Of a DNA stretch of 64,000 nucleotides, positions 19,201-35,600 are shown one piece after another. The DNA is taken from assembly GCA_025345505.1 (NCBI GenBank), contig JANVCC010000185.1, forward strand, positions 1,680,701 to 1,744,700, read 5' to 3'. The stretch's first letter is position 1. Each line of letters begins with the position of its first letter. Source of the stretch: Todiramphus chloris collaris. Lineage: Eukaryota > Chordata > Aves > Coraciiformes > Alcedinidae. The notes beneath the pieces are model-generated. The model searched no databases. It saw nothing but the letters and a program-made list of their open reading frames with translations, and was not told the DNA's origin. Position numbers and translations under genes: made by a program.

Positions 19201-22200
19201 TGAAGGAATCCGATAGCGCTGACGGGGAGGAGGCCATCAGCCCGGAAAAACCAAAGGAGCCTCTGTCTCCGAGCCCTCTGCTCTCCAGCAAGGCCACTGA
19301 AATCAACCTCCTTGAAGACATTTTCCCTAGCTTAGAAGTAGATGCACAGCCTCAGCCTCTCAGCCAAGCTAAGAGCCTGGAAGACCTGCGGACTCCCAAA
19401 GAGGAGGGCGATCAGCGCTGCACGTTTGATTACCAGGTCTGGTCGGGCTTTCGCGGCAGGGTTTGCTCAGGCTGGTGCTGGCTGCCTTTCATAAGAGTGG
19501 GTAGATGTGTCCATTCTCCAGGCATTTGCTCATGCATGTCAAAGTTCCTTTCTGAATTAAGAAATTACTGGAGTGGGACTCAGTTATAAGACAGTAACTT
19601 TTTCCACTCAGACTACAGCCTTTCCTTGTAAAGGAGCAGGTATTTGCCCTGTTCCTCAGGATCTGTTTAATCCATTTGGCTGTCACACAGAGTTATCTTT
19701 GAAGCTGATGCTCAGCCGTGAGAATGACTCCTGGGAATTTTCAAGTCCATTCCAAACTGCACATTTTTTAGCAACCTTCTTTAACCTGGCCGTTCTGGTC
19801 TAGGCAGTACTTGAACAATCTAGATTGGAGAAGATTCTTTATGAAGAGCTTCACTCAGTGTATGCAGCCCAGAAAGTGCCAGACTAAAGCAGACTCTGAG
19901 ATCTTCATGTGACTTAGAAGAAAATAATGTCATTTCTACCTCATAATATTATTTAGTGTTATATCCAGATATTTCACTTGACAACTTTTTCCATACAGCA
20001 ATGAAGGCTTCTCAATTTCTGTACCTTAGGTACAGGTACATGCTTCTTACTTGGCCAACAAGAGTGTGTCACAGGGGAACTGCACAGTCCTGCTTTTGCT
20101 TTCCTCTCTGTCTCTCTAGCCCATGTGCTGTTGTCCTTCTCCAGAGCTCACAGTCTGTGGACAGATGCTCTTCCACTCGTGATCATCTAATCCAAACTCC
20201 CCACCATGGGCAGGGAAGCCTCTCAACTAGACCAGGCTGCTCAAGGCCTCATCCAACCTGGCCTTGAGCACCTCCAGCGAGGGGCATCCACAGCCTCTCT
20301 GGGCAATCGATTCCAGACTCTCACCACCCTCATACTGAAGAACTTTTTCCTAAGATCCAATCTAAACTTATTTTCCCTCAGTTTAAAACCATTTCCCCTC
20401 GTCCTATCATTGGTCACTCTTGTGAAGATCCCTCTCCAGCCTTCCTGTAGGATCCCTTCAGGTATTGGAAGGCAGTTATAAGGTCCCCCCAGAGTCTTCT
20501 CTTCTCCAGGCTGAACAATCCCAGCTCCCTCAGCCTGTCCTCAGAGCAGAGGTGCTCCAGCCCCTGAATCATCTTTGTGGCCTCCTCTGGACTCATCCCA
20601 ACAGATCTACATCCCTCTTATGGTAGGGACACCAGAACCGGATGCAGTATTCGAGGTGGGGTCTCACAAGAGCAGAGTAAAGGGGGAGAATTGCCTCTCT
20701 TGATCTGCTGGCCACATTCCTCTTGATGCATCCTAGGACATGGTTGGCCTCCTGAGCCACGAGCACACTGCCCTTCCCTTCCCTCCAGTGAGCCCAGCGC
20801 ACCACACAACTTGGTGTTGTCAGCAAATTTGCTGAGGGTGCACTCGATGCCGTTGTCCATGTCACTGACAAAGATGCTGAACAGCACTGGACCCAGAACA
20901 GATCCCTGTGGAACTCCTCTTATCACTGGTCTCCATCTGGACATCAAGCCATTGAGCACAACTCTTTGAGTGCGACCTTCTAGGCAGTTCCTTATCCACT
21001 GAGTGGGCCATCCATCAAGTCCATGTCTCTCCTTCTTAGAGACAAGGATGTCACCACTTTGCACAAGTCCAGGTAGATCACCTCATTGCTCTGATGTGAT
21101 GTGAGGAGACCAGTAGAAGTTAACTTTTCTTTTAATGCTTCCTTGCAGAGAATGGATCTTGGTGTGTCTGAGAGGAACAGGATTGTGCCAACCATGAAGC
21201 TGTCTCACCCTTACAACAAGCTGTGGAGTATGGGTCATGATGACATGGCCATTCCTACCAAGTACTCCCAGAGCTCGCCGGAAAGGCCCTTGACTGCACT
21301 TGGCAACATGCCACCGATCACAAGGAGACCCCGGAGCAGAGACAGCATTTTGACTCCTGCAGAAAAGGATGAATCGAGTCCTGCCATCCAAGGGAACATC
21401 ACCATTCCTAGGCCACAGGGAAGAAAGACTCCTGAACTGGGCATAGTGCCACCACCACCAGCACCCAGGGCTTCCAAGCATCAGAGTCCAGCTGGGCCGA
21501 CAGAAATCCTCAGTACCCACACTGCAGGCCGTAGCCACGTGGTTTCAGATCTCATCCCAGAGCCCTTTGGAGCTGGGAGTGTGTCCTTAGACACTGAAAT
21601 CCAACAGTCTGGAAATTACTCCTCTCATCCATCTCAGCTTTTGTCCAGTGCTACCAGCACTGCTGAGATGCTGCAGCCTGTCAAAGTTAAGGCAGATAAT
21701 GCAGGTAACGAAAGCGACTACCTTCTGAACCTCCTGGACCCGCTGAAAACAGCCAGCTGGCAAAGCACTGGCCCACAGCAAGGTCCCCACAGCCTGCAGA
21801 GCTCAGCCACAGCACCTTCAGCAGCTGGCTTTGGCTCGGTGGCAGGTGACTTTGTGCCTCCTCCAGCTGCACCATTTGTCCAGCCACTTGGTTACCCCTC
21901 CCCAGCACCTCCACCGTTTCTACAGCCGTCTCCTAATCCATTTACACAAACAGTGCCAGGAGCCCTTTCAGCGTCTCTAGTGAGACCCCCGAGGGGCTCT
22001 TTCACCCCCTCTTTAGGTCACGCTTATAGCTCTAGTTTCATAACACCCAGTTCTACCTTCTACCCACCACAAAGACCTCAGCCAAACATTTCAACACTGT
22101 CCATGCCAAACTTGTTCAGCCAGGCTCCAGCTGTGCCACCCGCTGGCTCCCTGCTGCTGCAGGGCCACAGCCCTTCTCCAGCGAGCTCTCTGCAGCCAGC

Positions 22201-22471
22201 GTGTTTAACTGGTCCTTCTAAAACCAGAACATTACGGGTGGGCCAGTCCAGCACAAAGGTAGATCCCAAACAAGCGCTAGATCTCCTCTCTAATGAACCC
22301 CCTTTGATCCCTGCCAGGCCACCTAAGGGCTTAGAGTCTGTATTACTGTCCTCAAAGCCTGAGGAGACAAAAGATCCATTTGAGGATTTGTTAAAAAAGA
22401 CAAAGCAAGATGTGTCACTCACACCAGGTAAGGTCGAACAGCTCCGAAAGCGATGGGAAACCTTCGAGTAA
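4191..22471 (+). CDS. DENND1A: DENND1A (connecdenn 1), C-terminal part, five exons
   Basis: DENND1A is a guanine nucleotide exchange factor for Rab35 acting at clathrin-coated pits and early endosomes. Its N-terminal DENN module is off the left edge; the window holds the last 618 residues. The exons 4191-4250, 8628-8716, 16812-16940, 19181-19436 and 21149-22471 join without a phase break. The tail is recognised by strong likeness to the vertebrate protein: the [14 protein letters not shown] segment, SAPFEW/PQPYR across an exon junction, [42 protein letters not shown] and the ending [12 protein letters not shown]. Visible short motifs include proline-rich SH3 ligands ([14 protein letters not shown]), clathrin-box-like LLEDIF and LLDPL, an NPF and a DPFEDLL. 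The gene converges on CRB2, as in human. The first two downstream donors are weak GTCT forms, described separately. Confidence 0.95.
6807..6922. repeat. Polypyrimidine (CT-rich) tract
   Basis: About 115 bases almost wholly of C and T on the + strand, with many CTCTCT and TTTCTC runs, inside a DENND1A intron. Such tracts can form triplex structures or act as decoy polypyrimidine signals for splicing. Nothing indicates coding use. Confidence 0.8.
6925..7140. promoter_or_regulatory. Candidate conserved intronic element
   Basis: This AT-balanced block contains a TAATTAG homeodomain core, an ATCGAT, a forkhead-like TTTGTTTGTTGGCA that also carries an NF1 half site, and TGACAG (Meis/TGIF type). 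The density of such sites next to simple repeats resembles vertebrate conserved non-coding elements. This is inference from composition only; conservation could not be tested. Confidence 0.3.
7447..7520. repeat. A/C-rich simple tract
   Basis: A stretch built nearly entirely of A and C on the + strand, with short AAT, CCAA and AAAAC reiterations. It lies in a DENND1A intron and looks like degenerate simple sequence. Confidence 0.75.
8628..8716 (+). CDS. DENND1A: DENND1A exon, second proline/basic segment
   Basis: This 89-base exon follows the acceptor gtctgtaatag and ends at a strong donor GTAAGT. It enters in phase 0 and leaves two bases of a codon that the next exon completes as histidine. 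It reads [12 protein letters not shown] followed by [18 protein letters not shown]-like sequence, which matches vertebrate DENND1A. The acceptor's pyrimidine tract is poor, so this exon may be subject to skipping; because of its length, skipping would shift the frame. Confidence 0.88.
10741..10990. promoter_or_regulatory. Candidate conserved intronic element
   Basis: An AT-rich block with GATAAG, ATGCTAG, TTATTTGAC, repeated TAAT-type homeodomain cores, CAGCTG and CAATTGACAATGG (SOX-like). Composition resembles a vertebrate developmental enhancer. Support is motif density only. Confidence 0.28.
12900..13650. other. GC-rich intronic island
   Basis: About 750 bases distinctly richer in G and C than the surrounding intron. 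Because stop codons are rare in such sequence, long open frames run on both strands (up to 283 codons on the - strand). They show no domain, no splice signals fitting DENND1A, and low-complexity composition, so I do not call a gene. It contains the 12-bp minisatellite at 13514-13561. Confidence 0.5.
13514..13561. repeat. 12-bp minisatellite, four perfect copies
   Basis: The unit CCTGGTGAACAG is repeated four times without change. The absence of mismatches suggests recent expansion, so copy number may vary between individuals. Confidence 0.95.
14060..14440. promoter_or_regulatory. Candidate conserved intronic element
   Basis: An AT-rich block with several homeodomain-type cores (GATTAATAGG, TTATTAATTCCC, GTTAATAAC) directly beside the GC-rich island. 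It may be a conserved non-coding element. This is inference from motif density. Confidence 0.27.
16812..16940 (+). CDS. DENND1A: DENND1A exon with acidic SEDSSDDE segment
   Basis: This 129-base exon follows a strong acceptor (tgtttccctcag). Its first base completes the split codon from 8716, and its last two bases (TG) complete tryptophan with the G at 19181, giving SAPFEW-PQPYR as in human. It reads [20 protein letters not shown], then an acidic stretch and [10 protein letters not shown]. The donor is GTCTAT, a weak match. If it is not used, the same frame stays open for about 158 further codons to a stop at 17413-17415. Confidence 0.93.
16941..19180 (+). other. DENND1A: DENND1A intron with open read-through frame
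   Basis: The first 475 bases continue the upstream exon's frame without a stop and are rich in cysteine codons. The rest holds no supported exon. A possible conserved block lies at 18640-18790. No AATAAA was seen shortly after the read-through stop. Confidence 0.7.
18640..18790. promoter_or_regulatory. Candidate conserved intronic element
   Basis: A block with ATAATGGATTG, TTGTTTCTTGATAAG, TGACACC, ATGTAATCATTGG (homeodomain plus SOX-like) and CAATTATTGC. The motif mix resembles a developmental enhancer. No conservation data were available. Confidence 0.27.
19181..19436 (+). CDS. DENND1A: DENND1A exon with clathrin-box-like LLEDIF
   Basis: This 256-base exon follows acceptor tttctctcccag. 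Its first base finishes the tryptophan codon and it ends in phase 0 at TTTGATTACCAG. It encodes [18 protein letters not shown], a serine/proline-rich part, [16 protein letters not shown] and [13 protein letters not shown], matching the human protein closely. The LLEDIF piece fits a clathrin-box type motif. The donor GTCTGG is weak; retention of the intron would add about 51 residues before a stop. Confidence 0.94.
19437..21148 (+). other. DENND1A: DENND1A last intron, carrying a CR1 LINE
   Basis: The intron contains an antisense CR1 fragment over roughly 20178-21110, leaving about 40 bases of unique sequence with a T-rich tract before the last-exon acceptor. No other feature is seen between 19437 and 20177. 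Confidence 0.8.
20178..21110 (-). mobile_element. CR1 LINE, 5'-truncated, antisense to DENND1A
   Basis: The - strand encodes the C-terminal part of a CR1 reverse transcriptase: [26 protein letters not shown] (the conserved RT block), [20 protein letters not shown] (the FADDTKL active-site block with the second aspartate changed to asparagine), then the CR1 3' region. Read on the + strand, the left end gives the usual reversed CR1 3' text (gatcatctaatccaaactcc, aggctgctcaaggcctcatc). The last bases with the octamer repeat are missing. The frame is interrupted and an active-site residue is altered, so the copy is dead. CR1 is the dominant LINE in birds and reptiles. The end points are approximate. 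Confidence 0.93.
21149..22471 (+). CDS. DENND1A: DENND1A last coding exon
   Basis: This large exon begins after acceptor cttccttgcag in phase 0 with [11 protein letters not shown] and runs 440 codons to a TAA at 22469-22471. It is a proline/serine-rich disordered tail. Conserved pieces are [48 protein letters not shown] (clathrin-box-like, near 21726-21745), an NPF (near 21934), [19 protein letters not shown] and [15 protein letters not shown] (DPF, the AP-2 ear ligand, near 22373). The end [12 protein letters not shown] is nearly the same as in human. Between these islands the sequence is diverged and repeat-poor, as usual for this tail. Confidence 0.96.
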   Translation, partial: RMDLGVSERNRIVPTMKLSHPYNKLWSMGHDDMAIPTKYSQSSPERPLTALGNMPPITRRPRSRDSILTPAEKDESSPAIQGNITIPRPQGRKTPELGIVPPPPAPRASKHQSPAGPTEILSTHTAGRSHVVSDLIPEPFGAGSVSLDTEIQQSGNYSSHPSQLLSSATSTAEMLQPVKVKADNAGNESDYLLNLLDPLKTASWQSTGPQQGPHSLQSSATAPSAAGFGSVAGDFVPPPAAPFVQPLGYPSPAPPPFLQPSPNPFTQTVPGALSASLVRPPRGSFTPSLGHAYSSSFITPSSTFYPPQRPQPNISTLSMPNLFSQAPAVPPAGSLLLQGHSPSPASSLQPACLTGPSKTRTLRVGQSSTKVDPKQALDLLSNEPPLIPARPPKGLESVLLSSKPEETKDPFEDLLKKTKQDVSLTPGKVEQLRKRWETFE

Positions 22472-25552: not shown

Positions 25553-28298
25553 GTAAATTTCTTTTGAAGGACATTCTAATTTTTTACAAATTATAAAATT
25601 TACAGTTACAAAAGAGATTGGGATCATGATCATTGACTACAGCAAATCCGGTTTTGTGAAAAAATATATTCAAAAATTAAATATCAAAAGCAAGTTAAGT
25701 TCATTATTGAAAAAAAAGAAACCCAAACTTTCATAAATTATTCTGCAGAAATGCTCAAGACACTGACAAAGTATTTTAACACTTTTGCTGGTACTGGCTT
25801 TGGGTGCTCGCAATAAAACCCTCTGCTCTGCCCATGCGGGGAGGCGCCCGAGCAGCAGCCTCCCTGCCACCCCGGGACCCCAGGGGCTGCAGAGCCCCGC
25901 TGCTCACCTGGGCTGCTTTTCACTCTTACTCGGGGGGAGTCTGTAGCTTCTTGTTGCCTTCCAGGATGTTTCAGTAGCTTAGTGAGAGTTCTTACACCAC
26001 AGTTCTGGTTTTCTTCTCTCAACGCCGCAGGCTGGGGTTCTATCGGTTCATTTCAATCCCAGGGCTGCCTCCTTTTTCTGTGATTTCAACACAGAAAGGG
26101 AGTGGAGCTGGAAAGCAGTTCACACCTCTACTGGCAGCGACCTGGAGGTTAGTCCGAGTTCTCAGAAACCTAACGCACGTGCTCTGTGTGTTGTGGGTTT
26201 ACTACACTCCTCGTGGGATGAAGGAAACCACAGCCTCCCTTTGCAGGGAGGTGAAGGCCAGGGAGTGGGGCTCTGACAGAGTCTGCTCTGCGAGTCCTTC
26301 TGGGGACCAGAAGGGACTGAGACCAAGGGGGAATTCTGTTGCACAGCTCAGTGTGTGGGGCCAGCCCCTTCGGACCCACTCTCCCAGGAGAGCGCTGCCT
26401 GCTCCCTTTGGTTATTTGCCTGCTCTACAACTGCTGCTGAGCAAAACCACACTCACCTTTTCCCTAAGGTGAGGGCTTCACTAGTCCCGCTGCGGGGAGG
26501 TGACAGCCTGACTGCCTCCACCCTCAAAGTGTTTGTTAGCCCGGCCTAAAGAGCAGCTGGCAAACACAGCCAGGCCCTGCCGTGAGCGGGACCAGCAGCG
26601 TTCCCACAGACACAGAGGGAAGCGCGGAGCTCACCCCAAGCAAGCTGGGCCATTTCTTACCAGGGCTGTGTCCAGCCCCTTCCCAGCCCAGGGGGCAGCA
26701 CCACTTGCTCGTTCAATGTTTCCTCAGTGGTAGAAGGACAGGGACTTTACCCACAAAATCTTCTCTCAGCTCCCAAGGGTTTGGGGATTTTTCTGTTTTC
26801 CAAAACTTACATTCCTCTTCCAGCAGCAGCTGCCTGCGTGCAGCCCTGCTCTAAAGGGGACAGACCTGCTCGGTAGTTTTGCACTCTTCCCTTTGCTTAG
26901 AATTGCAGAAAAAATTACAGCTGTAGTAAAGAAAAGATAAAACCCAAGAGCAAAAGTGAACGGCGTTTTCTCGCAGTGGCGGTTGGCTATGGTGGGCAGC
27001 TTTACACCCTGCTCATTAATAGTATTTAGAGATTAAAAAGCAGACACCATTTTCTAACTTACTTCTCAGTGATAGTTGCAGGAATGAGCCTGAAATGCTA
27101 ATGATTTAGACCTTATTTGGCCTGCTGGCTGCATTTCCTTCCCCAGGCTATGCTGGAGGACACCTAGCCCTCAACAGCTCCAGCAGTTACCAACAGAGAA
27201 GCCACAGACTCCATGCCCTTTTTAGGGCAATGTGGAAAGTGATGGAAGTGTCTCCCTGGTTTTGTGTTAAAGGTCATGATCTCAGTTAACGCCTCTCCAT
27301 GTTTCTGTCCCTCTGTCCCTAAAGGTGCAGCTCTGGAACCATCTCCTCCTGCCCCCTCCCACAGGCAGGGGCCCTGTGCTGGTCCAGCTCTGTCTCTCCT
27401 GCTCTGGCCCCTTCTTGGGTGCTGCAGCTTTGTGCAGCTGCTGGTCCTGGGCCAGCCTGCCCTGCCTGGACCGCGGCACGAGCAGTGGGGAAGGACGAAG
27501 GGCCCTCAGCCTAAGGCTGAAATCGGGGTCAGGTTTTCTACGTACAAACATCCTTTCAAGAAAGTTAATTCTGTAACTGGCAACTCAGTCTCAGAAAGGC
27601 ACTTAAGCCCAGTCTTAGGCGTAGCTTTAGCAGCAGTGTCCTGGGCCCAGGGCCGGGTTCAGGCTCAGGCAGGTGCCTGCTGGGCAGGGCAGCTCTGGGC
27701 AGTGGCCCCCGTCACTCACTCACCTGTCTCAGCTTCGCCGGGAGGCACAGGCACAGGTTTTTTGTAACCAACCACATTCTCTCTCTAAATAGAGTGGTTT
27801 AATTCCCCTTCATTAGACCTGCCTCACTTACCTGCCACTGTGGTGCCTGCATGGCAGTGGCAGCTCCTGCGGCTCCGAGGGCCTGGGGCAGAGGCTGAGC
27901 AGGGCCCAGCGATGCTGGTGCCACCGGTGACACACAGTCCTGCACCGGTAGCAGGGCTGGGTCCCCCCCTCTGCTCCACAGCCGCCGCTTGCTGCCTCCC
28001 CTCCACGGGCCCCTCCAGAACAAGCTTCTTTTCCTTCCAGACTTACTGCTCTTGCTGCAGCCAGTTTCATACAAAGCTTTTATGGGATGAGCCACAATAG
28101 CCAAGCTCATAATCAATACTCAAGCAGCTGACTCTCCCTGCCAGGTAACAGCAGGCAGTGGCCTGTAGCCTATGAAGTAGCTTAAAGCAGTGCAGACCTG
28201 TCCTACAACAACACAGCTGGAGACCTAAGACAGAGACGCTGCAGCAGTTCCAGGGTGGTTGAAGGATGACACAGCACCTGGTGTGTGACCCCGAGTTC
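25553..28298 (-). other. CRB2: CRB2 3' UTR (inferred)
   Basis: No supported exon on either strand follows the stop at 28299-28301 down to the poly(A) signals at 27798-27803 and 25547-25552. Short open frames here are featureless. The stretch is GC-rich near 27300-28060. Confidence 0.5.
27798..27803 (-). terminator. CRB2: Poly(A) signal ATTAAA, candidate proximal CRB2 end
   Basis: TTTAAT on the + strand, read as ATTAAA on the - strand, about 500 bases past the downstream tail-exon stop. It would give a short 3' UTR shared by both tail isoforms. Confidence 0.45.
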
Positions 28299-28517
28299 TT
28301 AGATCAGCCGCTCCGTTGGTGGCATCTTGATCACGTTCCACATTTCCACTCGAGCCCCATCTTTTTCTTGACGGCTTGGGCTGTACGTTCCCTGAGTTGC
28401 TCTCCTCCTCTTCATGGCGAGCGCTGTGACTGCAACAAGGGCGAGGAGAAGGGCAGCCCCTGCAGCCCCGACTGCTCCCACCACCGAGGAGTTGCTAAGA
28501 TGTGCCCAGACTGGCTG
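28299..28517 (-). CDS. CRB2: CRB2 alternative last exon 13b: CRB1-type transmembrane segment and tail
   Basis: An open 72-codon exon ending in TAA. On the - strand it is preceded by a good acceptor: branch-like CTCTAAC, pyrimidine run and CCGCAG, with a tandem CAGCAG. It enters in phase 0, the same as exon 13a, so exon 12 can join either. It reads a short stalk with an NSS glycosylation site, an alanine/leucine/valine-rich membrane helix, then [25 protein letters not shown] and the terminal ERLI. The tail carries the juxtamembrane FERM-binding site and the PALS1 PDZ ligand, but the [13 protein letters not shown]...RVEMWN pattern is that of CRB1, not of CRB2. Intact frame, splice signals and motifs argue for a working exon, not a relic. 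Confidence 0.85.
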
Positions 28518-29415
28518 CTGCGGTAGAACAGGGGGTTAGAGCTGCCGCGAGGACGCAGCTGCAGCGCACGTCCCTCAGCCCCCGGCCCCCGTGCCGCTCT
28601 CTAAGCTGGGAGCAGCGCTGGACAGGGGCTCCCCGGCCTCTCGCCCTCCCCTCCCTGTCAGAGTCCAGTGAACACAGAAGCAGCGGGGGGGCCCCTGTCC
28701 TGTTCGCCTTTCCCCCCACCCCCCCCAGGTTCAGCACTGGGCCCCCAACCCCCGCGCCTGCCCCTCCTGCGCGGTACCCATGGGAATGTCTAACACGCTC
28801 GGCATCGCTGGGGCTGCGGGCAGTGACCGCGGGAAGGCCAGTGCCGCTCGCAGGGCAGGAGGGCACAGCTGCTGTTGCTGTTGAAGGCTGCCTGGGAAAG
28901 CCTCGTACACCTGAGCTGAAAAAGCTGTGAGTGCAGTTCCGTTGTTGACAAAACCAGACCAGTATATACAAACCAACCATAAATACCCTCTGTACAAAGC
29001 ACCTTAAACGTACCCACAGAGCTTTTTCTGTAAATCAGTGCCTAATTTATCCCTGCCTTTTGAAGCAGATTTGACGATGCCATTGCTGCCTGAAAGGAAG
29101 AACGGGGCCAGAACAACATCAAAGCAGGTGGCCCCCCCACAGCTCCTGCTGGCAGGGGTGGTTCGGGGAGTCCATGGGGTGGGAGAGCAGGGAGGGAAGG
29201 GGCTCACGTGGAGCCAGTGTGTGCAAGTGAGCCGGGGACCCGAAACCTGCTGGCCCCGCGACCGCACTGACAGTCTGCCCCGCACGGCTACGTCCAGCTC
29301 TTCGTTACCGTGCCTTAGGGACACTGGGATGGGGTGGATCTGCTGCTGCAAGTGCTGGAGAAAAGCTCAAGGTCAAAGCAGACCTTGCAGGTGCATCTCC
29401 TGGTCATGGTAGTGC
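28518..29415 (-). other. CRB2: Spacer between the two CRB2 tail exons
   Basis: About 0.9 kb, GC-rich in its lower half. It holds no AATAAA or ATTAAA on the - strand; only a weak GATAAA variant near 29046. Transcripts ending in exon 13a would therefore probably run through to the distal signals and carry exon 13b in their 3' UTR. A long open frame on the - strand looks like a product of GC richness. Confidence 0.6.
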
Positions 29416-29643
29416 CTATATTAACCGCTCTTCGGGTGGCACCTTTAGGACACTGTCCATCTCCAGCCGAGCTCCTGCCACTTCTTGCTGGCTGGGACTG
29501 TAGGTTCCCTCTGACTGGCGCCTCTTCCTTGCAGTGAGAATCATGAATATGAGCCAAATACTGAGCAGCAGCAAAGAGCCACAGGCTACAGGGACAGCTA
29601 CTTCAATTAGTGGGGAGGGGAAGAGAGCACCTGGAGTCCCTTT
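29416..29643 (-). CDS. CRB2: CRB2 exon 13a: transmembrane segment and CRB2-type tail
   Basis: This 228-base terminal exon follows a strong acceptor (aatttcttttacag) in phase 0 and ends with TAG. It encodes a stalk [19 protein letters not shown], a leucine/isoleucine-rich helix, [18 protein letters not shown] and [20 protein letters not shown]. The GTYSPS region is the FERM-binding and aPKC target site; ERLI binds the PALS1 PDZ domain. The tail is practically identical to human CRB2 as I recall it. Confidence 0.97.
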
Positions 29644-32600
29644 CTGTAAAAGAAATTAATGGAGAAACAATGAAACTCCAGCAGTCACAGTAACTTGAAG
29701 AATCCAAAATGATCAGATTAGAGGGAAAGGTTTTTTTTTAGAAAGGCAAACAAACACCGAAGAGCTGCAGCCCAACGGGAAAGGCTGGGCAAGGAACAAG
29801 TACAGGGCTTGGGGTCTGCACAGAGCCCGCCCATGTTCAGTCTTTACTGTCCCAGCAAAACACGGTTCAAACTTTATTTTTTAACTGGACTATTTTCAAC
29901 ACCAGACCAGACAGCAGCACACTCTGAATTTTTCTTTCCAGTTCAAAACCAGTGACACTCACCCCTGGCACTCTAACTGGCAGCGATGGTGAAGCTGATC
30001 TCATCAGGGCAGAGTGATAAACAGAGATTTAGGGATGGAGCAGTTAATACTGTTACGCTAAGTCATGCAGGCACAGGGGCGGAATGACCGCAAGGAAGAG
30101 AAGGGAGGATTTCGGGGGCTGGGCAGCTGACCCACACCCCGAGAGAAACACGGGACCTGGTGCAAGCTGTCCCTCACACACCTCCTGCTCCTGCTCAGGA
30201 TGCTCAGCTGGGTGTTGGGGTTAGAACATCCCAGCATGGAGTCTGAGCAATGCCTCAGACGTTACTCGATGAGGTGAAACTGTCCAAATCACATCACGTG
30301 CTCCACAGGTTCCTCTCTGCTTTTCCCAGGAGGACATGCCCTTAAGATTAAAGTGCCGGTACATTCAGCATCTGCAGCAGAAATGTTTTCAGAAGCCTCC
30401 TTACCAATCTCAGATTAAAATACGTGGGTGGCACTAGGAAAGATCCAGCCAATGTGGGGGAAAAAAAAAAAAGAAACTAAACCATAAAGTTAATGCAGAG
30501 TAATGTGAATTTTCAGTAACCCCACAACACTTTCCCTGAGAAAGGGAGTGATACTAAAATACAATGATGCCTCTGATGGGAGGGCAGAGAATTTATTCAG
30601 CTGCCCCTTGCACCAAAGATTACAGGCAGCCTTGTGACTCAGCACATCCAGGAAGACCTTGGGACAGGGTGGTGTAAGGTTCAGAGTTAACCCTCAACAA
30701 TTCTCAAAGCTGGAGGGAAGACCAGGATCCAAACCCCAGAACTGAGAACACCTTGCAGGAACTTCATGAAACCCTAGGGCAGAAGAATTTAAATAACTTA
30801 AATGGTGAATGGCAAGGACTAGATCCCTTGAACTCCTAGCTCAAAACTTGTACATCCCAAAGCACAGGCGCTCTAATGTCCACAGGGTGTCTGAATGCTG
30901 GGCCGCAGACTTGAGGGCAACTTGCAGCAGGAAGGGGAGGATGTTAAAAAGGTCAGTGGATGGATGGGAGATGGAGATGATGTCAGAGCCAAGTACCGAG
31001 CAGAGAAATGTAGCTGCATGAGTATTCCTTAGGTTCTGGTGGAATTAAGGATGGTATGGAACACAAGAACAGAGAACTAAAAGAAAAACGGTGGAACTTT
31101 GATCATTAAAGAAAGCTTCAAACAATAAGCCCAGAAGTGAGAAATACTCTAACAACAGCATGTGCCACCTCCCAGATAAATCCGAAAGACTTGAAGCTGG
31201 ATTCCTTACAGTTTCTGGGTGCTGTATGGCCTGTGCTGCTGTCACGAAGCCCCCGCATACAGAGGGCTATGCCAAGTACCTGGAGGACACACGCCAACGA
31301 CTGAAGCTCCAGACGATGCACAGCCTGCCAAGCCTCAAGCCCTGTGCCAGGGTTAGTTCTGGGGCTGCCCAGCATGCACGTTAGTCACGCGGTACCAGCA
31401 CGGCAGGAGTTCCTCGCAGCCCACCCTTCTGCCTGCTGCAGCTCTTTGGCTGCTGCTGGAGGGGGGAAGAGCAGGAGAGCGCAGCCAACAGCCCTTGGCA
31501 CCAGCAAGCCCAGCATAGCCCTGCCTGTCCTCCCCCTGCCCCCAGCACGGCCCCGGCCCTTCCAGAAGGAAAAGACAGTCCTGCAAAAAGTAACGGGGGT
31601 GATGAAAATGAACACAAGGAATCTACAAGCCATGTCCTGAGACAGAGCGGACAGAGATGCCTGAAGGAGTCTGTGCATGCAAACTGGAACTGCCACATGC
31701 ACTACAGAACCCTCAGTAACAGCAACAGCAGCAAACCCCACCTTGGCGCACAGCCCTTTCCATGCAGTGTGGGTTAGTACATTCCCAGGTTACCAGACAA
31801 GCTGCCTGTCCATGCAGTAGCTGTACAGAGGAAAAGCAGGTGTACGATGGAGCAGCTTCCCCCCAGGAGGGGTTCAGCTGCTTTGCTGATGCCAAACAGG
31901 AGGCGTGTCGTTGGGGCTGCCCACCCGCCAGGCCCCGTGGCCAGCAGGTAAAGGGCACTGCTTTGTCACCCGTACCTCGATCACCGTTAGCCTGACTTCA
32001 TCTGACTTCCCCTCTCCAAATGCACCCGTTCCTACCCAGATGATCTCTGGAGAGGGAAGGTGCTTTGCAACTCTCATCCGAGATAAAATGCCAGCTGAAA
32101 TTCCATTCTCCAGGAAACTGGAGTGGGAGATACAAGTACCAGCTCCCTTCTACAGGCCCAGCTGCAGTAGTTTGATGAGTGTCCAGGGAGTCAAAGGCTA
32201 AGGAAAGTTGCAGCCAGCCCTGAAAACCCCAGGGCAGCCCAAGCAGCTACTGAGCACTGTTTGCTGCAGTTGCTGACTTGCTGCAGACTAACACGCAACA
32301 GCACTGCAAAGGAAAAATAACCCCACCTCGGGTTTCTTTGGTAGCAGCCGATTTCCTCCGTGCACTCAGCCGTGGCTGTGGCCAGGACAGACGTAGGGCC
32401 TGTCCAGCACACGGGCAGTGTCACTAACACCCCGTCCCCAGGGACTCTGCTAAGCCTACTGCTGCAGCCTCTCACCGCGCGGCTGACGAGAGGAGCCAGC
32501 AGCCCCGGGAGCCAAGGGCAGTGCTTACGTTAATGTCGCAGCGCTCGCCCGTGTAGCTGGCACTGCACAAGCACTCGTACTTGTTCTCCGAGTCTTGACA

Positions 32601-35600
32601 CGTGCCTCCGTTCTGGCAAGGGTTGGGATCACACTTGTTTATATTAATTTGACAACTGGAAAGGAAAAGGTGTATTAGAATTACATGAAGATCCTCGTGT
32701 GTGCTCTTGCACACAGAACACAAGATCACACAGCCTGCAAAACCCACGGTTATTTGAGAAGTTCCTGTTGCATTTTTTTTCAGGAACTTTCTCCAGGGTC
32801 CAACAACATCAAATTTATACCCACTCACACCCATCCTCCTCCTGTCATTTCTGTGCGACTGAAGCCACTTTGGGTCTCTGGCACAGTTAATGAATTCTCA
32901 AGGGGCACGAGAACTACAGCCTGGACATAGTTCTTGCTGCCGCAACTGCTCCTGTCAGCAGGATGGGCTCAAGCCTGTCTCTGCAGAAAACAACACCCAG
33001 GCTGTGGGTTTGGAGCTGTCATTTGAATGGCAAAAGGATGCAGCGTTTGACCCTGCTCAGGTACCCCACTGATGCAGGAACAAGCTCCTTTGCAGGCACC
33101 AGAAAACAGCACTTACTTCCTTCCAGTGAAACCAGGCTTGCAGGTGCAGTTGGCTCCCCAGCTCTCGCTGACGCACTTGCCACCATTCAGACAGGTGAAG
33201 TTCTTGCCACATTGCTGAGGTGGGAAAGGCCATCTGGGAAAAGCAAGAGACAGCCTTAAAGCCACTGGGGTTTGGGGAAAGCAAAAGCAGCAGCAGCACT
33301 AGGACATGTCTCACACAGTTGCCTATTGCTGATGAAAATACAGAGTCAGGATACTGTTGAAAAAATCAGACTGGAGACCAGCTGGGCCCCGGAACGGACA
33401 GTGCAAGTACCAGATGAGTGCCCACACCAGAAGGGTCAGGACAAGAGGAAACTCGACCTGGGTAGATTAGATACCTGGAGCTCAGCCCCATAAGTGTTTA
33501 TCTCAATGTTCAGTTTGAACAGGAACAAGTAGACCAAGGGCTAAGGAACATGCTGATCCCTACTTCCTTCACTGATAGGAAACATACCTTTGTGACTAAA
33601 ATATGCTGGATTTTGTTCCAAACTAACACAAATGCTATAAATACAGACCTTATCAAAAAACCAACCAAACCATCCCTCCTCCTGACTCTGTACTGATTTC
33701 CCAACAAATTTTACGTGAGCTGCATGGAGGGATCGTGAACCGTGCGCTGCTGAGCAGTGCAGGCTGTAGGGTGATGGGTAAAAAACCCTTTTTCTCCCAG
33801 TACACATTTGATAAGGAGCAGGATGCTCAAATAGATGGAAACAATGCCCTTAGTCTTAGGGCCAATACCACAAAATACAAACAAGCCCTTGGCTGAGGGA
33901 ATGCTGTTAATCAGTCTAGGAGGGCATGTGTATTTTTATCTCATATTACAGGAAAATATTTGTCAGGGAAAGGTGTGTTTGTGCAGAGGCAGGCCATGTA
34001 TCACTTGGAAATTGGCTACTGTGTGCCACTGGTAGCAAAAATAACCCCCCTTAAGAACAGGTCCTCTCTATAAACCCTACAGCAAAGGTTTGATAGACCA
34101 GCATTCTCAGCAGAGATCAGAGTATCCCTCTTCTGCACTCTGCCCAGGGGACCAGGATCCACACTGAGACCATTACTACCCCTCCAGGACACTCAGTGAG
34201 CTGGATACTGCAGGCCACAGCTTGCTCCACCTCTGGGGGCTGAGGGCTCCCTTCATGTCACAAGCAGCCCAGTGGCTTCTTTTGTTCATTCTGTTTTGTT
34301 TTAAATCAACGCAGGAATATCCCAGAGGGGAGTCAAACCCTGGAGAAGATGGATTTCTTGGGGAATGAAGAGGATAGTGACAACAGGCTACAGTGCCTGA
34401 ACTTCAAACAGCTCTGAAATATAGGGTGGGGATAACCCCCAGAAAAGGGAACGATCCTTACCCAGTGTGAGGCTGAGCACCCTGAGAGGACTTGGGCCTG
34501 GACAGCACCTCCCAATTCACAGCAGAATTTAGGTGCTTTACCTACCAGACACTTGCAATGAAAAATTTTCCCAAAGTGTCCCAAAGTAAAAGTCCAATTT
34601 ATCTGGGGCTCCTCTGACCCCTGCATCAAACCAACCAGGGACTTACTCGCAGCGAGGTCCCGAGTACTGTGGAGGACACTTGCAGGAGTAGCCGTAAACC
34701 CCATCGACGCAGGTAGCTCCGTTGCGGCACTGGTGCCGCACGCAGTCGTCGACGTTGATGTCACACTTCTTCCCAATGAAGCCCCGGAAGCACTCACACT
34801 GGAAATCTGCTACGGCATCGACACAGTCCCCGTGGACACAGGGGCTTGACTGGCAGTCGTCGATGTTGGCCTCGCAGAGCAGCCCGCCCCAGCCGGCACT
34901 GCAGGCGCAGCTGAAGGAGTTGAACAGGTCCTCGCAGGTGCCGGCGTTGAGGCAGGGGCTGGAGGAGCAAACGTCAGCGCCAGTGCAGCCCAGCTGGAGG
35001 GCCCTTCCGCCGGACCGCTGGAACTGCTCCGGCTGCGGGTATGGGAGGGGGGCAGTGAAGGGCAGGTAGATCCCCCCTATCTTCACCTGTCCCAGGCAGC
35101 CAGTGAAGTTTTCAGCCAGAACAATCGGTGCGTTGTTCTTTAGGAAGTCCAAGTTGCCAGCACTCCCCTGCAGCGTCACGTTAACAGACCCATCCAAACG
35201 GACCAGCCAGCTGGAAGAAAGCGCAGATGGCTCTTCCATGGACACAGCGACGGTGTGCCAGGCGCCGTCTGCGACGGGCGTCTGGCTCTGGAAGCTGACA
35301 CCTTCGATGCTATTCCCACTCCTGATGTCAACAAGCAGGGAGGAGTTCTTGATGGCTATCTGGAGGGAATCCACTTCTTCCACAGCCCGAAGCAACACAG
35401 CATCTTCATCCCTAGTCCTGAAATCCACGTGGAGGCTGCTCAGAGTTCTAGTCACCGATGTATTGGTGGTAAATTCAACAGCAGCATCATTGTTAAATGT
35501 TGCATTAGCCAGACCTATAAATAAAGGAGTAGAGCATAAGGGAATTGAAAGGCAAGTGGTATCATGTTTGAGGCAGACCAATGGCAAACTCCTGGTAGGT

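Follow-up and report, generated by a model that had tools for sequence, protein, structure and literature searches.

Does the CRB2 gene of this genome possess two alternative last exons, one encoding a CRB2-type tail and the other a tail of the kind found in CRB1, and, if so, how did the second come to be there? The window, i.e., the whole stretch of 64,000 nucleotides that was analyzed, corresponds to C122:1680701-1744700 of the bird's own genome (1.17 Gb, 889 contigs). Our reading, which we hold with some confidence, is that the second exon, termed 13b, is a genuine, old and selectively maintained alternative last exon of CRB2, probably inherited from a two-tail gene that existed before duplication.

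Two last exons behind one donor

The minus strand of the window carries the 3' part of a Crumbs gene (CRB2), convergent with a plus-strand gene that we take to be DENND1A. The coding features considered are the following:

CRB2 exon 12: 32529..32655, minus strand; last EGF repeat, ending in CDIN, with the donor ATTAAC/gtaagc at 32529 in phase 0, common to both tails
Exon 13a: 29416..29643, minus strand; CRB2-type stalk, membrane helix and tail, C-terminus ERLI
Exon 13b: 28299..28517, minus strand; CRB1-type stalk, membrane helix and tail, C-terminus ERLI
ERLI PDZ-ligand codons of 13b: 28302..28313, minus strand; TAA stop directly after
Candidate last coding exon of DENND1A: 21095..22468, plus strand; open frame that converges on CRB2, with DENN-domain exons upstream on the same strand (the gene name is our assumption)

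Direct reading confirmed the coordinates, strand and frame that the original prediction had given for 13a and 13b, and translation bore out its claim that both enter in phase 0 and encode a stalk, a membrane helix and an ERLI tail. The exon 12 donor (6.3 bits) is left without a partial codon and thus exits in phase 0. Behind this one donor and on the same strand, each of the two exons lies directly after an AG, with 13b located 898 bases past 13a. The encoded proteins start with KGTPG (13a) and QPVWAH (13b), and each then presents a stalk, a hydrophobic helix, a basic stretch, GTYSPS and a C-terminal ERLI followed by a stop. The membrane helix was read by eye, without a membrane predictor, as a hydrophobic run followed by KRRR/RKRR and a tail of about 37 residues. 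In Pfam, 13a and 13b both gave matches only under the curated cut-offs. At the level of the sequence, the observation of a second, CRB1-like tail exon in CRB2 is confirmed.

It should be noted that all splice scores, including that of the exon 12 donor, were calculated with consensus matrices. Both acceptors had been described as good; this holds for 13a (7.0 bits) but was overstated for 13b, the acceptor of which scores 1.75 bits, or 2.0 bits three bases further on at CAGCAG, and is the second lowest among the 13 CRB2 acceptors scored. As many as 7% of all AGs in the window score at least as high. For the 11 other CRB2 exons, the best candidate acceptors range from 1.72 to 8.90 bits, values that are biased upward because the best AG per approximately 90 bases was taken, while the last-exon acceptor of CRB1, at 1.99 bits, is near that of 13b. 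The CAGCAG at the start of 13b (28514-28517) is a tandem acceptor that could add or drop one glutamine. Other signals around the two exons are:

CTAAC branch-point-like word: 28535..28539, minus strand; a good candidate for 13b, the A lying at -19 from the acceptor of that exon
ATTAAA: 27798..27803, minus strand; first AATAAA/ATTAAA hexamer behind both 13a and 13b, with GT-rich sequence after it
GATAAA: 29046..29051, minus strand; weak variant hexamer that could end a 13a transcript ahead of 13b
Four TGCATG words: 31676..31816, minus strand; in intron 12 on the sense strand, within 141 bases, a candidate regulator of tail choice

No AATAAA or ATTAAA is found between 13a and 13b, and a weak CATAAA variant lies behind 13b at 28084. 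TGCATG is presumably an Rbfox-type word. When the 64 kb strand was resampled 300 times by a Markov model, four such words never fell within a span of this size and three or more did so in 22 cases; in the window at large, TGCATG shows no enrichment (48 observed, 54 expected). The cluster was picked out post hoc, after a scan of eight splice-regulator word classes, and as a putative regulator of tail choice it should be taken as a lead only.

Identity of the two tails

When 13b was used as a query against the bird's own genome (E up to 0.001), three places were found, namely 13b itself, an exon on contig C18 at E 9.7e-15 (64 bits) and 13a at E 9.6e-10 (48 bits). It also matched, at E 7.5e-9, the Crumbs tail of PDB 4wsi, which we take to be the fly protein. 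With three such matches, the resemblance of 13b to Crumbs tails is not a matter of chance. With 13a as the query (E up to 10), these three places came up again, together with three weak matches at E 2 to 5, and the C18 exon (E up to 10) retrieved itself, 13b (64.4 bits) and 13a (38.4 bits). None of the three Crumbs tail queries found a CRB3 tail exon in the genome, for which a split exon or an assembly gap is a possible reason. When 13b was run against viral contigs and the genome contigs of GTDB, no relative turned up, which is unsurprising for animal DNA.

The C18 exon is the last exon of CRB1, since it is preceded, on its own strand, by EGF and laminin-G exons resembling those of CRB2 (9430525-9477662) and since the C-terminal 16-mer of CRB1-B, as given in the available text of PMC7335077, matched just behind these exons. 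Its size of 216 bases is close to the 219 bases of 13b (both with stop), and its phase is identical.

As for 13a, which had been assigned to the CRB2 type, its last 20 residues are identical to the mammalian Crb2 antigen peptide of 20 residues in PMC2266719. The same source gives 95% and 90% identity to this peptide for zebrafish Crb2a and Crb2b, respectively, so the fish Crb2 tails reported there are of the 13a type. The assignment of 13b to the CRB1 type on the basis of RVEMWN also stood, as its best match is the bird's own CRB1 on C18 and as RVEMWN is present in the human CRB1 17-mer of PMC4356366, a peptide that covers RVEMW but not TQG/SRQEK. Compared with fly Crumbs and 13a, five residues are common to 13b and CRB1 only: the Q of TQG, the R and K of SRQEK, and the V and W of RVEMW. 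The CRB1-type derived residues in these three motifs are all found in both 13b and own CRB1. Own CRB1, on the other hand, has NMVQ and GSR where 13b retains NVIK and GAR. Judged by sequence, the reading of the tails as CRB1-type and CRB2-type survives the test against the CRB1 of the same genome.

Descent, age and place of 13b

A tree of the tail exons had been proposed as a check, and the four-tail maximum-likelihood tree (38 residues; 13a, 13b, own CRB1 and the fly Crumbs of 4wsi) grouped 13b with CRB1 at a bootstrap of 88, with 13b on the shortest of the four branches (0.12, compared with 0.28 for CRB1). Grouping 13a with CRB1 is rejected by the AU test (p about 0.007) but not by the KH/SH tests (0.07 to 0.08). 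Grouping 13a with 13b is 7.9 to 9.2 log units worse, yet is not rejected by AU (p 0.10 to 0.14 under three models, 38 residues). The tail trees are thus best described as leaning toward 13b with CRB1 on short material.

In terms of age, 26 of 35 tail residues are identical between 13b and CRB1, with pS of 0.91 and pN of 0.13 (Nei-Gojobori). Among the codons for the same residue (M and W left out), 15 of 24 differ, as do six of the ten twofold ones, a level close to saturation. In a neutral simulation that started from the CRB1 tail and placed all change on 13b, the 26 identities were kept in none of 20000 runs at 0.5 substitutions per site and in none of 20000 at 0.8, while the share of runs that retained both frame and identity was 0.2% at 0.3, 4.8% at 0.2 and 43% at 0.1. 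This selection test uses paralogues within one genome rather than orthologues. Because silent differences are many and neutral change fails to keep the identity, 13b is neither a recent CRB1 copy nor a long-dead relic. The results support, as far as sequence can, an old exon preserved by selection, and a recent disuse of 13b is possible.

The surroundings of the two genes were compared by means of the DENN domain family, since the last exon of DENND1A, as a genome query, matched itself alone. On C18, DENN-domain exons at 9576755 and 9590684 (minus strand) lie downstream of the plus-strand CRB1, and on C122, DENN-domain exons at 1612738 and 1606738 (plus strand) face the minus-strand CRB2, all of these being among the best candidates listed. 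In both pairs, the first DENN exon aligns to one and the same part of the profile, 120-153. From human maps, we take the C18 and C122 genes to be DENND1B and DENND1A, respectively. Each of the two CRB genes thus runs toward a DENN gene, an arrangement to be expected if the blocks were duplicated, and at both loci the last tail exon before the DENN gene is of the RVEMWN type. This fits an ancestral order of exon 12, 13a, 13b and DENND1, from which CRB1 would then have lost 13a while CRB2 kept both in this genome.

Remains that we presume to be a CR1-type LINE lie near the last exon of DENND1A (20244-21082, minus strand) and have relatives in the CRB1 region. Stop-to-stop fragments of the window with start or end below 27 kb that gave matches (E up to 1e-4) in the 240 kb CRB1 region were also considered and set aside, as the matching parts were only pieces resembling such a LINE, the name CR1 again being our assumption.

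The original prediction had offered two origins, a two-tail ancestor or a copied tail. A recent copy is contradicted by the silent differences, whereas tree and position favor the ancestor, so that a gene carrying both tail exons before the CRB1/CRB2 split is the most likely source, as read from the sequence. A second tail exon at the CRB1 locus, which had also been suggested for search, did not appear: relaxed settings revealed no remnant of a 13a-type exon on either flank of the CRB1 tail exon (19.6 kb ahead of it and 20 kb behind it, 40 kb in all), nor did one emerge in the 240 kb CRB1 region at E < 0.05, and the proposed loss of 13a from CRB1 hence left no trace there. In its fullest form, that two interchangeable ERLI tail exons predate the split, that the tail difference is older than the genes and mirrors the choice of exon retained by each paralogue, and that this lineage still switches between them within CRB2, the reading is put forward tentatively, as close to evenly poised.

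Several other explanations should be considered. The tail might have been copied from CRB1 to the CRB2 locus after the genes separated, by exon capture or partial duplication, long ago, and then kept. The protein of 13b is indeed closest to CRB1, and when the human CRB1 17-mer was added to the tree, 13b was best placed outside the pair of own and human CRB1, while a position inside the CRB1 clade beside own CRB1 costs 2.6 log units without being rejected (AU p 0.125). Adding two further human tails gave the same picture (AU p 0.19 for this position). Such a copy has, however, to be reconciled with the wide divergence at silent positions noted above, and when window positions 26001-33500 were compared, as DNA and under relaxed settings, with the 40 kb surrounding the CRB1 tail exon, only one stretch reached E < 0.01, comprising 63 bases inside the tail coding part with no matching flank. 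Moreover, 13b retains residues common with fly or 13a that are altered in own CRB1 (NV.K, GAR), is equidistant from own and human CRB1 (26/34 each), and sits in phase at the expected place before DENND1A. We thus consider an old copy unlikely.

It might also be that 13b was formerly used and is now a relic, left unspliced in the 3' UTR of the 13a mRNA. Its weak acceptor agrees with this, as does the position of the first AATAAA/ATTAAA behind it, by which it may be transcribed without splicing, and the available part of the human CRB2 isoform table (PMC5380682) shows no counterpart. The open frame, stop, GTYSPS and ERLI of 13b are nonetheless all intact, its branch is the shortest among the four tails, and the simulation speaks against a long period of neutral decay. 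This explanation is distinctly unlikely.

The adjacency of 13a and 13b could further reflect an old tandem duplication of 13a, with the likeness to CRB1 acquired by convergence. In five of six placements, the AU test does not reject this (p 0.10 to 0.14; 0.119; 0.084), although the grouping is 7.9 to 14.1 log units worse and one placement is rejected at p 0.013. At least five convergent residues would be needed, and the CRB1 likeness extends beyond the tail into the membrane helix (55% over 62 aa). The silent sites point the other way, as 11 of 22 same-residue codons differ between 13a and 13b, including two of eight twofold ones, with pS of 0.78 compared with 0.91 and 0.96 for either exon against CRB1 (Nei-Gojobori). 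This silent-site pattern agrees better than the protein tree with kinship of the two neighbors or with a base composition common to the locus; it counts in favor of local kinship, but the contrast comes from few codons and may reflect such a common composition. Overall, a tandem origin is very unlikely.

Finally, 13b might close a small gene of the CRB3 kind, distinct from CRB2 and with a signal-peptide exon in front. In favor of this, a hydrophobic-start open frame at 28980 has a phase-0 donor (5.8 bits). It is, however, the only one with such a donor among seven hydrophobic-start frames listed for 32528-28518, the donor lies after residue 87 and leaves an intron of about 200 bases, and the tail is of the CRB1 and not the CRB3 type. 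This explanation is scarcely credible. With two short exon 11/12 queries, no EGF exon better than E 0.04 was found between exon 12 and 13b or behind 13b, and hence no separate gene for 13b is suggested.

Proposed use of the two tails and known alternative Crumbs ends

Returning to 13b as a maintained alternative last exon, we infer its use in CRB2 mRNA, the resulting protein and its function. The exon 12 donor would join either 13a or 13b, both in frame, such that one EGF/laminin-G ectodomain is carried by a membrane helix and tail of either the CRB2 or the CRB1 type. Given acceptors of 7.0 and 1.75-2.0 bits, the near exon 13a would be the probable default and 13b a regulated choice. As the first AATAAA/ATTAAA lies behind 13b, which would then sit in the 3' UTR of the default mRNA, tail choice may rest on acceptor competition alone, provided that GATAAA is unused. 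Both tails should support the Crumbs complex, as each retains GTYSPS on the FERM side and ERLI as the PALS1 ligand. Binding to the PALS1 PDZ domain is driven by ERLI, with a 6-residue peptide binding as well as one of 17 residues (excerpt of PMC4356366), so both tails should bind PALS1. For the FERM side, the CRB ligand ATRGTYSPSA (4YL8) is given in a table of PMC10249358. Differences between the tails would be expected on either side of GTYSPS, within the RVEMW/RLEMD stretch and in the membrane helix.

CRB1 and CRB2 are retinal and kidney disease genes, the division of labour between which is debated. Two tails behind one ectodomain would amount to a natural domain swap that separates the role of the tail from that of the ectodomain; it could also account for any ability of CRB2, acting by itself, to take on functions like those of CRB1. 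If both tails were already present in the ancestor, the identity of a tail evolved independently of that of its gene, and trees or antibodies based on tails could mislabel proteins.

Variation among Crumbs products is known in several forms. Fly Crb isoforms differ in one EGF repeat (PMC5312091) and zebrafish crb2b forms differ by start site (PMC7044448). For human CRB2, the legend of a review figure has four transcripts predicted from exons 1-13 plus the alternative exons a and b, and the isoform table, in the part available, holds no second tail (PMC5380682). By title or abstract opening among the full-text matches listed, a scope outside which most subscription journals fall, no description of a second CRB2 tail was found. 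Alternative Crumbs C-termini are thus known, for CRB1-A/B and CRB3A/B, while two complete ERLI tails in one gene were not found described in the excerpts available.

The closest parallel is CRB1-A and CRB1-B (Ray et al. 2020, PMC7335077), which differ in the helix and intracellular domain, CRB1-B being reported as conserved across vertebrates, cell-type specific and tied to another promoter. As with 13a and 13b, one Crumbs gene uses alternative 3' ends to swap helix and intracellular domain; CRB1-B, however, is without FERM/PDZ motifs, whereas 13b, in CRB2, forms an exon of its own and contains the two motifs. In the present genome, the CRB1-B tail (helix, MDDDDPAVEWGEQEDY, stop) arises where the penultimate CRB1 exon stays open beyond its donor and is read through (C18:9477663-9477790). 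The corresponding read-through of CRB2 exon 12 stops after 18 residues and gives no CRB1-B-type end. In CRB3, 3' alternative splicing likewise alters the C-terminus, but CRB3A ends in ERLI and CRB3B in CLPI (PMC7456964), thereby losing the PDZ ligand, while 13a and 13b both end in ERLI. The mouse variant Crb2+9A/CRB2S, a secreted CRB2 produced by alternative splicing (PMC7108746), is without membrane helix or tail, whereas 13b would give a second complete tail. Lastly, the CRB1 last exon itself agrees with 13b in phase and size class, but 13b stands in CRB2 beside a CRB2-type tail and differs from it in NVIK as against NMVQ.
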